A stretch of 24,059 bases of DNA, taken from positions 1 to 24,059 of the IMG/VR virus record IMGVR_UViG_3300044731_001819. One strand, written 5' to 3'. Shown piece by piece: positions 12,294 to 16,900 of the stretch. The translations under genes and the position numbers were made by a program. Positions within the stretch are counted from its first letter, which is position 1, and each line of letters starts with the position of its first letter. The notes beneath the pieces were generated by a model. It had not been told where the DNA came from. It ran no database searches and saw only the letters and a list, made by a program, of their open reading frames with translations. This DNA comes from a virus.

Positions 12294-13031
12294 ATGCCTG
12301 AAAGAAACTTCATAGACAATCTAATTGGACAAATGCGAGTAAAGGGTTTCGCCAGACCCAACCGCTGGATTGTTATAATCGATCTTGATGCGAATCTTGC
12401 AACAAATCTGGGATTTTCCAAAGCGGCTATAGTTAGGAGACTAGCAACGACTTGCAACTCTGTTTCTATTCCCAATAAGTCTTTCTACACACATGAGTTG
12501 AATGTATCTTATCCATCTACTCTGATTCCTTACGCAGTATCAACAAATAACCAAAGCGGTGCATCAATTGAGTTTAATGTTTTAGCAGATATGTTTGAGA
12601 AAGATGTGTTTGAAAATTGGCAAAATCAAATCATAGATCCTATTACCAAACAAGTTAATTTCTACGACAAATATGCAAAGAATTCCTCTGTTGTGATAGT
12701 TGAGTTACCCAATTCCATCAAGGATCTTGAAGAGGGGATTGGTTATTCATACAACCAAAACGCATCTGGAATAAGACTCACAGAGATATATCCATACAAT
12801 CTGAGCGTCAATAATGGAACACAGTCATATGATCAAACAACAGATGCATTAAAGATAAAAGTAGACTTCATGTATAGAGAAATCACAAAAATATCTCAAC
12901 CAAGAATCAGCAATATAAACGAAGGTTTATATCTTGTCGATGAAAACGGAAATAACATGGAAATACGAAGACTATTAACACAAGGATTAACTTTTATATC
13001 TCAAGGACAAGGGTTCCTTGGACAACTGTGA
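12294..13031 (+). CDS. 54: Baseplate-tail tube initiator gp54-like
   Basis: The 245-aa protein has the tail-tube fold signature: GFARPNRWIVIIDL at the N-terminus, ATTCNSVSIPNKSF near 58, SGASIEFNVLADMFEKDVFENWQNQIIDPITKQVNFYDKYAKN, then LTEIYPYNLSVNNGTQSYDQTTDALKIKVDFMYREI. This is the layout of gp19 tube proteins and their gp54 paralogue. Its length (T4 gp54 is 320 aa, gp19 163 aa) and place among baseplate genes favour gp54, the ring on which the tube polymerises. A tube protein would usually sit with the sheath gene gp18, which is not here. The ATG follows the upstream stop by 2 nt and has no Shine-Dalgarno. Confidence 0.75.
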   Translation: MPERNFIDNLIGQMRVKGFARPNRWIVIIDLDANLATNLGFSKAAIVRRLATTCNSVSIPNKSFYTHELNVSYPSTLIPYAVSTNNQSGASIEFNVLADMFEKDVFENWQNQIIDPITKQVNFYDKYAKNSSVVIVELPNSIKDLEEGIGYSYNQNASGIRLTEIYPYNLSVNNGTQSYDQTTDALKIKVDFMYREITKISQPRISNINEGLYLVDENGNNMEIRRLLTQGLTFISQGQGFLGQL

Positions 13032-13057: not shown

Positions 13058-13768
13058 ATGGGAAATTTAACGAATCTAATATCAACCACACCGACATATG
13101 AAACTGTTCTTCCGACTAGTAAACAAAGAATTTCATACCGTCCGTTTCTAGTCAAAGAAGAAAAAATACTTCTAATCGCATCAGAATCAAAAAACGAAAA
13201 AGAAATATCTAGAGCGATGAATGATGTTGTGAGTGCATGTACCTTCGGAAAGGTTAATATGCAAGACTCTTCCATCATTGATATCGAATATCTATTTTTA
13301 CAGATAAGAAGTAAATCGGTTGGCGAAACCACTAAACCTATGGTCAAGTGTAAAAAGTGCGAGGCAACCAACGAAATTCAAATCGACTTGACAAAAATTC
13401 ATCCCGTTACGAATTCAAATCACAACAGTAAAATTCAATTAACCGATAGTGTTATTGTTGAAATGAGATATCCAAAATTTTCCGATATAGAAAAGTTACA
13501 AGACGCCAATACCGAGACACAAAAGTTGTTTACATTAATGTCATTATGCATTGATAAAATACACACAAAAAAGGGCACATTCAATTCAATTGATCTTGAA
13601 GAAAGTGAGATTATTGACTTTATAGATAATTTAACGCAAAATCAATTTAGAAAAATGACTGAGTTTTTTGAAACAATGCCGCAAATGAAATATGATGTGG
13701 ATTACTCATGTGGTAAATGTGGAAACCGAGAAACCTTAAGTCTAAAAGGTGCCCAAGATTTTTTCTAA
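13058..13768 (+). CDS. 26: Baseplate hub/tail assembly protein gp26-like (zero-frame product)
   Basis: The 236-aa protein resembles T4-type gp26 hub proteins (208 aa in T4). Its N-terminus carries the family block TPTYETVLPTSKQRISYRPFLVKEEKILLIASES. Two CxxC pairs, C98/C101 (CKKC) and C218/C221 (CGKC), are about 117 residues apart and probably form one zinc ribbon. The helical C-terminal half includes KFSDIEKLQDANTETQKLFTLMSLCIDKI. A clear Shine-Dalgarno AAGGAGAATG precedes the ATG. The gene ends in ...GAT TTT TTC TAA, a canonical -1 slippery heptamer right on the stop, and a gp51-like frame continues in -1. It is immediately upstream of the tape measure gene, the place of tail assembly chaperones in long-tailed phages. 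A chaperone role is inference from this arrangement. Confidence 0.8.
   Translation: MGNLTNLISTTPTYETVLPTSKQRISYRPFLVKEEKILLIASESKNEKEISRAMNDVVSACTFGKVNMQDSSIIDIEYLFLQIRSKSVGETTKPMVKCKKCEATNEIQIDLTKIHPVTNSNHNSKIQLTDSVIVEMRYPKFSDIEKLQDANTETQKLFTLMSLCIDKIHTKKGTFNSIDLEESEIIDFIDNLTQNQFRKMTEFFETMPQMKYDVDYSCGKCGNRETLSLKGAQDFF
13759..13765 (+). promoter_or_regulatory. -1 programmed frameshift slippery site (T-TTT-TTC)
   Basis: The zero-frame codons are GAT TTT TTC TAA. The heptamer T-TTT-TTC allows both P- and A-site Phe tRNAs to re-pair after a -1 slip, and it is followed at once by the stop codon. Slippage leads into an open -1 frame coding 63 further residues. A short inverted repeat GACC (13773-13776) and GGTC (13791-13794) lies downstream, but it is weak and I do not rely on it as a stimulator. 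Confidence 0.8.
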
Positions 13769-13956
13769 TTTCGACCTCCCATGATAGTCTGGTCAACTAC
13801 TACGAAACTAACTTCGCTATGATTCAACACCACAAGTACTCACTTTCAGAATTAGAATCAATGATGCCGTGGGAGCGTCGAATTTACATAGAACTTCTAA
13901 TACAACACCTAAAGGATGAAAAAGAAAGAATGGAAAATGAAAGTCGGAATAGATAA
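13765..13956 (+). CDS. 51: gp51-like extension reached by -1 frameshift from the gp26-like gene
   Basis: The -1 frame codes 63 residues after the slip and then stops, so the fusion would be 299 aa. The sequence includes NYYETNFAMIQHHKYSLSELESMMPWERRIYIELLIQHLKDEKER, a block I recognise from gp26/gp51-region proteins of distant T4 relatives. An independent start is unlikely. The in-frame ATG at 13819 has no Shine-Dalgarno and would cut off the NYYETNFA part. The in-frame ATG at 13717 lies inside the zinc-ribbon coding region and would add unrelated residues. In T4, gp51 is a separate 249-aa hub assembly catalyst, so this short module is gp51-like at most. The tape measure starts 27 nt after the stop. 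Confidence 0.7.
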   Translation, partial: LISTSHDSLVNYYETNFAMIQHHKYSLSELESMMPWERRIYIELLIQHLKDEKERMENESRNR

Positions 13957-13982
13957 CTTGACAAGTCAGTAGGAATCCCCAG

Positions 13983-16900
13983 ATGAAAGACCCAAACGAG
14001 ATCAATCCCAAAAATACATTTGCACCTGAGAGTGACAATATCTCCAATAAACTCAAATCTAATTCTCTCAGTGATACAGATAAAACTAGTATTGTTAATG
14101 ATCTCCTTGACAAACTGAGAATTAGAGAAACTAAGTCTAATCTTGGTAATGTAACTGTCACAATAGTGGATGGATCCAAAAAGCCACGATCTCCATCAGG
14201 AATTTTTCCGCCGTCAACATCGGGATCTTCTTTCATATCGACCACAACAAATCTTGTGGTGAACTCCTCACCAAAAAATCAAACCAATACTAATTCTTCT
14301 CTAACTGGAGAAACCGCAAATCAAACCAAAAAAGAAGAGAAAAAAGAACCCGTTATAGAAAATAGTATGCGGGTAGGTTTTGAAAAACTTTTAGAGTCTC
14401 AAGATAGTTTGTTCAAAAAATTTGAGGTTGCCTCATCAAAAATGGAGCAGAGTTGGAAGGAAATCAGTAGTCTCAAGGCTGAAATATTTAAGATCGAAGA
14501 AACCGGTGAAGGAATAGACCAAATTGAAAAACTTCGCCTTCAACTTGATCGTGCAGTTCTCCTTAATAAATTAAGTAGTGACGAAGCCAATGCGATTCAA
14601 TCCGAAATAAAAGATCGCCAAACAGAAATAGAAACATCCTTAACAACTATATCTGAACAGTCATCTATAAATGCTGATGTTGCTCGTAAACTTCTTGGAG
14701 TAACAAAAAATGCAAGTGAAGAGTCATTAGAAAAACTTCGGGAAATCGATGATCGTATAAACGACGATAACAAAAAGTTCGAATCGTTTATGATGCAGTT
14801 CAAATATGAAAATGAACTGACACGAAAGGTCGAAGACGAAATTAACTCTCGTCTAGACAAATCGATATCCGATGCCGTGGAAAATTTCCAACTATTTACA
14901 AATCAAGATACATTAGTTGAAATATCGAAAAAAACAGGTCTTAATCTTGAAACTTTGGCTCTTATTCAAGAAGAAATTGCAAACAGTATTAACTCGGCTG
15001 GCGATAAAGTAGATCTATCTGATAAAAAAGAAGTAGAGAGATTCAAACAACAAATTATAACCGAAACTAAATTCAAAAACGATATTGTAAAGGAACTAAT
15101 AAAGAGCCGAGAAAAAATTGATACTGAAAGTGTCAAAAAAGAACTAAAATATCAGTATGAAAGATCTGGTCTACCCGCAGCATTTGCAACAATAAAAGCA
15201 AAACAAAATGCAGAGCAAGAAGCGAATTTAAGAAGGAAGGCCATAGATGAGCAAATTCAAATACTGAAAACTCAAAACGAAACTGAAAAAAAGCAACTAG
15301 ATCAAAGTTTATTCCAATCATCTCTGATTGAAGAAGACATCAGATATCGTCTTGAGAAAGAAAAAGAAGATTCCGGACTTCCTAAATGGTATCGTGAACT
15401 GAGAGAAAAACTTGAACCAATAAAAACAGTTCTTGATGATATGCTAGAAGCATACAAAAGTCAGGGGATATTGACTAAAATTTTGATGGCTCTTGGTCTT
15501 GTTGGAGGGATAATTGCAGGAGTAATTTCCGCTGCTATTTCTAAAGTTTTCTCAACACTTGCAGGAGCATTCGGTGTATTTTCAAGACTGTTCCCTAACA
15601 TTGCAAAGGGTATAACATCGTTCCTAGAAATATTGTCAAAAAGTGGAACGATTGGGAGTAAAATTATAAGTCCAATAATTAAAATGGTCAAACCTGTTAT
15701 CACGGCTATGAAGTTCGTTATGAATTATCTTGGAATGTTGATAAAACCATTAGGTGCAATTTTCAACTCTTTTAAAGTTGGAGTATACCTTGGTAAAGAA
15801 TTGGCGAAGGGTTTAAAGTATTTTATTGGGATACTAGGCAAACTGGCTTTGCCAATAACAGTCTTATTGACAGCAATTGATGCTGTTATAGGAGGGTTTA
15901 AAGGATATAGCAAAGAGGGAGTGTCTGGAATAATCAAAGGAGCATTGTCGGGAATTATAAGTGGTCTAACTTTCGGATTGATAGATTTCGAATCCATATT
16001 CAAGTTTTTTGGTGATACAATTCAACCAATATTTGATTCGATCAGCGATGCTGTTGCTCCATTTGCAGATTGGTTGACATCAACATATCGAATATTCAAA
16101 AAGGCTTTTGATGATATATCAGAAACATTTCAAGGTGGTGGGTCTCTAATCTACAAGATATTCAAATCTTTTGGTCACTTGGCGGTCCTAGGGCTTGAGT
16201 ACATTAAAAACAACATAATGTTAATTGTCAAAGGACTGTTTCAACTTGCAGTAGCCTTACCATTCAAAATTGGTGTGTTTTTAGGTGAAACATTAATTCA
16301 CATATCAAAAGTGATACGAGATACTATCGATATGGCTATCAATTGGTTTATAAACTGGATAAGTAGCGGACAATGGCTAGGTGATATGAGGAATTTCGGT
16401 AATTGGATATGGAATGAATTAGTTGGTGTATTAGAAGATGCGATTAAAGGTCTTGCGGATGGTCTAGGTGAACTCCCGATAGTTGGAGAATATATCAAAC
16501 AGGCTATAGGTGGGGGATCTAAATCTGCTCCCCCGATGACACAAGAAGAAATGCTGTCAGGTGAAGAAACAGGGATAGAAAGAACTTCAACTGAGATACT
16601 AGCAAGTAAAGATGCAGAGGCACAAAGAACTTCAACTGAGATACTAGCAAGTAAAGATGCAGAGGCACAAAGAACTTCAACTGAGATACTAGCAAGTAAA
16701 GATGCAGAGGCACAAAGAACTTCAACTGAGATAGCCAAAGAGTTTGGTGAAAAATTAAATGAAGATCAAAAACGCAGAGATACTGCTGCTGTTATCACTT
16801 TAAATAAACTAATTGGAAACGCACAATCAAGTGAAGAAACCTTGTCGAAAATTAACAATATTTCATCTACTACGGAGAGAATGGCGAGTTCATATGCCGC

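Follow-up and report, generated by a model that had tools for sequence, protein, structure and literature searches.

A conserved slippery heptamer and a very probable programmed −1 frameshift in the gp26/gp51-like tail assembly chaperone locus of a virus record from IMG/VR

A programmed −1 ribosomal frameshift very probably makes two tail assembly chaperone (TAC) forms from one locus in the virus record IMGVR_UViG_3300044731_001819. We analysed the whole stretch of 24,059 nucleotides, a single contig that we call the window. The sequence signal at the end of the gp26-like gene, its conservation among relatives, the homology of both reading frames and the gene order are direct observations, and the features of the locus are collected in Table 1.

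Table 1. Features of the gp26/gp51-like locus, with positions in the window
Feature	Positions	Strand	Basis or remark
Tail tube protein (gp19/gp54-like), upstream neighbour	12294..13031	+	phrog_45 'tail tube', E 1.8e-13
gp26-like gene, short tail assembly chaperone (TAC-N), 236 aa	13058..13768	+	PF12322, phrog_150
SD-like AAAAGG	13744..13749	+	About 10 nt upstream of slip site; weak in the window, duplex -3.9 kcal/mol
Slippery heptamer T TTT TTC	13759..13765	+	In register with the gp26 frame
0-frame stop TAA	13766..13768	+	Abuts the heptamer
−1 extension, 63 codons + TAA, C-terminal tail of gp51	13765..13956	+	phrog_634, phrog_150
First ATG past the slip site in the −1 frame	13819..13821	+	No SD; rejected as start
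Putative tape measure protein, 1079 aa	13983..17222	+	Position, length, hydropathy; own SD AGGA 13971-13974

The slip site, the −1 extension and their neighbours

The gp26-like gene ends in GCC CAA GAT TTT TTC TAA with 13768 as its last base, and the earlier note had correctly read a T-TTT-TTC heptamer that touches the stop (13759-13768). The encoded protein matches PF12322 'T4_baseplate' with an E of 2.4e-59 and 201 bits, against a curated cut-off of 24.5, and phrog_150 'baseplate hub' with an E of 2e-62. The −1 frame reads CTA ATT TCG ACC ... from 13765 and, as had been noticed before, stays open for 63 codons through a conserved-looking block to the TAA at 13954-13956; we find this block in relatives as well. 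Its gp51-like identity is borne out by phrog_634 'baseplate hub assembly catalyst' (gp51), which the −1 peptide matches with an E of 4e-26. The peptide has a further match, with an E of 2e-5, at the C-terminal end of phrog_150, so some phrog_150 members already hold both parts in one chain. It belongs to a conserved family with a mean column identity of 54%.

Fusion of gp26 and the extension gives a predicted long form (TAC-NC) of 299 aa, in which ...AQDFF is joined to LISTSHD.... Three helices are predicted in the extension (pLDDT 85.7): the first starts right at the junction and spans residues 2-22, the second is short, and the third, a long one, covers residues 35-62. The AlphaFold2 model of the short form has a pLDDT of 92.8 and matches models of T4-like gp26 proteins with E values down to 3e-20. 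Sequence and fold searches of the PDB gave no significant solved relative: no sequence homology to the solved chaperones was detected, and the HK97 tail chaperone 2ob9 appears in the Foldseek search of the PDB with the short form at rank 5 (E 0.88, prob 0.20, rmsd 15.7), which is not significant. The window gp26 contains two CxxC pairs, CKKC and CGKC, at about 13350-13366 and 13710-13722, which resemble a zinc ribbon and are absent from several cyanophage relatives.

The order of tail tube, gp26, −1 extension and large ORF is the classical TAC position. The 1079-aa ORF has three long hydrophobic stretches; since PF and phrog profile searches gave no family match for it, we treat it as a putative tape measure protein. 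In HTVC008M, the extension is followed at a short distance by a large ORF that carries the annotation putative tape measure. Near the C-terminal third of the window ORF, at 16500-16740, about four copies of a near-exact 15-residue repeat (RTSTEILASKDAEAQ) are found, and variation of tape measure length through repeat number is possible.

Slippage, its frequency and the chaperone action are what we infer from these observations. Most ribosomes would stop after TTT TTC TAA and release the 236-residue gp26-like short form. A minority would slip back by one base on T_TTT_TTC, with both Phe tRNAs re-pairing with TTT TTT, and these ribosomes would bypass the stop and continue on CTA ATT TCG ... for another 63 residues, so that the 299-residue long form would end with the gp51 tail. 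If the system works as lambda G/GT does, the short domain would coat the product of the next gene, the putative tape measure protein, and tail tube subunits would be recruited by the gp51 tail. PMC4066793 lists U_UUU_UUC as a motif prone to shifting in E. coli.

Conservation of the heptamer and rival explanations

Within the window, 20 T6Y heptamers are found on both strands against 38 expected, and in-frame T_TTT_TTN occurs five times in 7599 codons. These motifs are not rare, so that a single heptamer alone is little proof and the case rests on homologues. The T6Y count itself lies below expectation (at least 20 in all 100 shuffles), as if slippery runs were avoided elsewhere.

We gathered homologues by gp26 similarity, and a few cultured phages by gp51 similarity, never by the heptamer. 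The sample comprises 80 viral contigs found by gp26 similarity alone, another 80 contigs with a gp26 alignment, and nine cultured phages, five found via gp26 and four via gp51. In each of the 138 distinct homologous loci that were counted, T_TTT_TT[C/T/A] stands in frame at the corresponding position, 0-8 codons upstream of the gp26 stop, and the −1 frame is open. The frame is open into the block SHxSLxNxYxTNFALMQHHKYSLxELENMxPWEREIY, with one contig ending nine codons into the extension. Heptamer and −1 frame are thus conserved together, the association that the earlier note had proposed to look for by alignment; the opposite arrangement, in which the gp51-like frame has its own start and ribosome site and the heptamer is missing, occurs in none of these 138 loci.

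Removal of sequences at least 80% identical leaves 107 loci (65 in a first, smaller set). The heptamer is present in all 107, as TTTTTTC in 76, TTTTTTT in 25 and TTTTTTA in six. The base that precedes the Phe codon pair is T in 65/65 loci, where codon usage predicts 39. The product of the codon-usage probabilities over these 65 loci is about 1e-24 if rows are taken as independent; the rows are related, so this is a guide value only. The window alone leaves room for a chance origin of the heptamer, and conservation among homologues rules chance out.

Among seven further cultured relatives, six keep the heptamer, two Rhizobium phages in the form TTTTTTG. The seventh, Pseudomonas phage Cygsa01, lacks it and reads ATT TTC ACC TAA with an ATG overlapping the gp26 stop (L100, 1800-1990). 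This could reflect a change from frameshift to coupled initiation, or a slip on the tetramer T_TTC. In the records of S-CAM1 and ACG-2014j the gp51 extension is unannotated.

The gp51-like frame could instead encode a separate small protein, started at ATG 13819, at ATG 13717 inside gp26 or by re-initiation after the gp26 stop. GenBank records of S-PM2, P-SSM2, Syn33 and others indeed annotate a short gp51 with its own start, and the TAATG overlap of Cygsa01 would suit such an arrangement. However, the annotated starts differ in place and often cut into the conserved block, and relatives do not share a start and ribosome site specific to this frame. From 30 nt before the heptamer to extension residue 16, there is no ATG, GTG or TTG in 30 of the 65 non-redundant loci, and 2/65 have, ahead of the conserved block, a start that is accompanied by an SD-like sequence. 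In the window, ATG 13819 corresponds to extension residue 19, and a protein begun there would lack almost the whole of the first predicted helix. The earlier note had already dismissed this codon for its missing SD and had seen no good start in the −1 frame, which we confirm. It left unmentioned ATG 13717, which lies in the −1 frame upstream of the slip site and from which its interval 13717-13956 was counted. A start at this offset is rare in relatives (ATG in 2/65, GTG in 3/65). The heptamer, in contrast, is invariant in the 65 relatives, with the −1 frame open from that point in every one of them, and the T4-type phages examined carry the same gp51 tail joined to a gp26-like domain. With usable starts this rare and the heptamer invariant, we reject an independent gp51 start, and a separate small protein appears very improbable.

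T runs are also slippery for polymerases, and six consecutive T's could therefore yield a mixed mRNA pool by transcriptional slippage. The run is short, however, and usually followed by C (76/107), and the exact register for tRNA slippage, T_TTT_TTN, is kept. Selection on synonymous codons for an upstream element that pairs with the anti-SD, described below, further points to an effect on the ribosome. We give polymerase slippage very little credence and retain ribosomal frameshifting as by far the best explanation.

Upstream and downstream elements at the slip site

In the 18 nt before the slip site, the mean anti-SD pairing energy over the 107 loci is -6.3 kcal/mol, compared to -4.9 kcal/mol for synonymous recodings (p 2e-9). 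In control windows of the same genes the difference is small and in the opposite direction (-1.58 observed vs -1.69 expected). The codon before a conserved Gly shows the same preference, with GAG over GAA at 25:11, against 326:1057 elsewhere (p 1e-8). Across relatives, the upstream codons form an SD-like element that is stronger than the protein needs. Frameshifting in dnaX uses an upstream SD, and the element of the gp26 loci resembles it.

Downstream of the slip site, the window shows no more structure than synonymous recodings (z -0.06) and no hairpin. Given this value and the weak SD-like element, the window is poor in stimulators. Among relatives, the downstream z falls below -2 in 15/65, with the strongest values in a cyanophage branch and a few isolates. 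One cyanophage branch has a hairpin with z of about -3 to -5.5; six loci contain a stem of 10-11 bp, in which one pair covaries as T-A, A-T and G-C. As a general stimulator the downstream hairpin is rejected, being absent in the window and in most relatives. What may be new in detail is the SD-like element under selection, together with the branch-specific hairpin.

The two-gene state of T4 and comparison with known systems

T4 gp26 (208 aa) and T4 gp51 (249 aa) both match PF12322, with E values of 9e-64 and 4e-52, and align directly to each other with an E of 2e-6. T4 gp51 is matched along its entire length by phrog_150 and in its C-terminal part by phrog_634, and its tail can be aligned to the −1 extensions with an E of 3e-6. 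It thus consists of a whole gp26-like domain and a 50-residue tail, which means that T4 has a separate gene for each form and that these genes are paralogous: gp26 encodes the short form, gp51 the long one. The earlier note had described them as separate genes; there are indeed two genes, but this description missed their common domain.

At the place of the slip motif, the C-terminus of T4 gp26 reads ...GLKEFFELL with the codons GAG TTC TTT GAG, which are not slippery, and the heptamer is kept in none of the T4-type gp26 genes examined. In the window, conversely, no second gene with a complete gp26-like domain and tail is found at the locus, since the extension is the 63-codon tail and its neighbours are the tail tube gene and the 1079-aa ORF; this holds for the 24-kb fragment. 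In the tree of the shared domain, all frameshift-type sequences lie on one side of a branch (97/97), as do all gp51 sequences (100/98), and the gp26 rows group together except for KP15, which has a long branch. Such a pattern agrees with a single duplication in the T4-type lineage; the tree is unrooted, so the direction of this change is inferred. Frameshift-type loci are also found inside Straboviridae, in phiAS5, Vibrio R10Z and Vibrio 6E35.1a.

Two observations on single records belong here. In Klebsiella phage KP15 (L096, 1501-2795), gp51 and gp26 stand in tandem on one strand with an overlap of 4 bp, which fits an origin by tandem duplication, whereas the T4 arrangement is divergent. The record MG010123.1, named Staphylococcus phage SAJK-IND, has a gp26 98.6% identical to that of T4, and its host label or the record itself looks doubtful.

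A more far-reaching proposal combines these strands: the slip would be tuned by a synonymously selected SD-like stimulator, as in dnaX, and by a hairpin in one cyanophage branch, and T4-type phages would have replaced the frameshift once by gene duplication into gp26 (short) and gp51 (long), with loss of the heptamer. We see the chances for and against this combination as balanced.

The frameshifted T4-like TAC class and its link to G/GT are already known, and the window is another member. The earlier note had suggested that the locus encodes tape measure chaperones and links the T4 hub proteins to the G/GT system. The gene position agrees with this role; the link is not new, as T4-like TACs were identified as short and long forms by Vladimirov, Gautam & Davidson (Virology 2022), according to the accounts in PMC10885494 and PMC12846349. 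The latter, on phage Adele, cites that work for poly-T slippery sequences in T4-like TAC-N genes. As far as these accounts convey, it was then proposed that the long puzzling T4 hub 'catalysts' gp26 and gp51 fall in the class of tape measure chaperones, and the large sample analysed here supports this. Sullivan et al. 2010 (PMC3037559) described cyanophage gp51 as being without its first ~200 residues but similar at the C-terminus. It would have looked truncated because the frameshift supplies the N-terminal part from the gp26 frame. In many public T4-like genomes, the chaperone is split into two annotated genes, or the second is missing from the annotation.

Among known systems, the T4-like TACs (PF12322/phrog_150; T4 gp26 and gp51) share with the window locus the family, the short and long forms and the tail domain. 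Where T4 uses two paralogous genes and has no slippery site, the window has one gene with a −1 heptamer. Kyanoviridae cyanophages and pelagiphages (S-PM2, P-SSM2, Syn33, HTVC008M, Mosig) share the heptamer, the −1 extension and the position between tail tube and downstream tail genes; a subset of them has a stable hairpin with a covarying pair a few nucleotides downstream, unlike the window. In lambda G/GT, P2 E/E+E' and HK97 gp13, a slip site near the 3' end and a −1 extension stand before the tape measure gene. The window resembles these and other siphophage and myophage chaperones in gene order, slip position, −1 extension and place before the tape measure; the lambda slip site is G GGA AAG, whereas the window uses a U run. 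In Vandenendeviridae and Andersonviridae, which are different phage families, the slip site of a −1 frameshift is likewise T-rich (GTTTTT) and lies close to where TAC-N ends on its 3' side, before the tape measure gene (phage Adele, PMC12846349).
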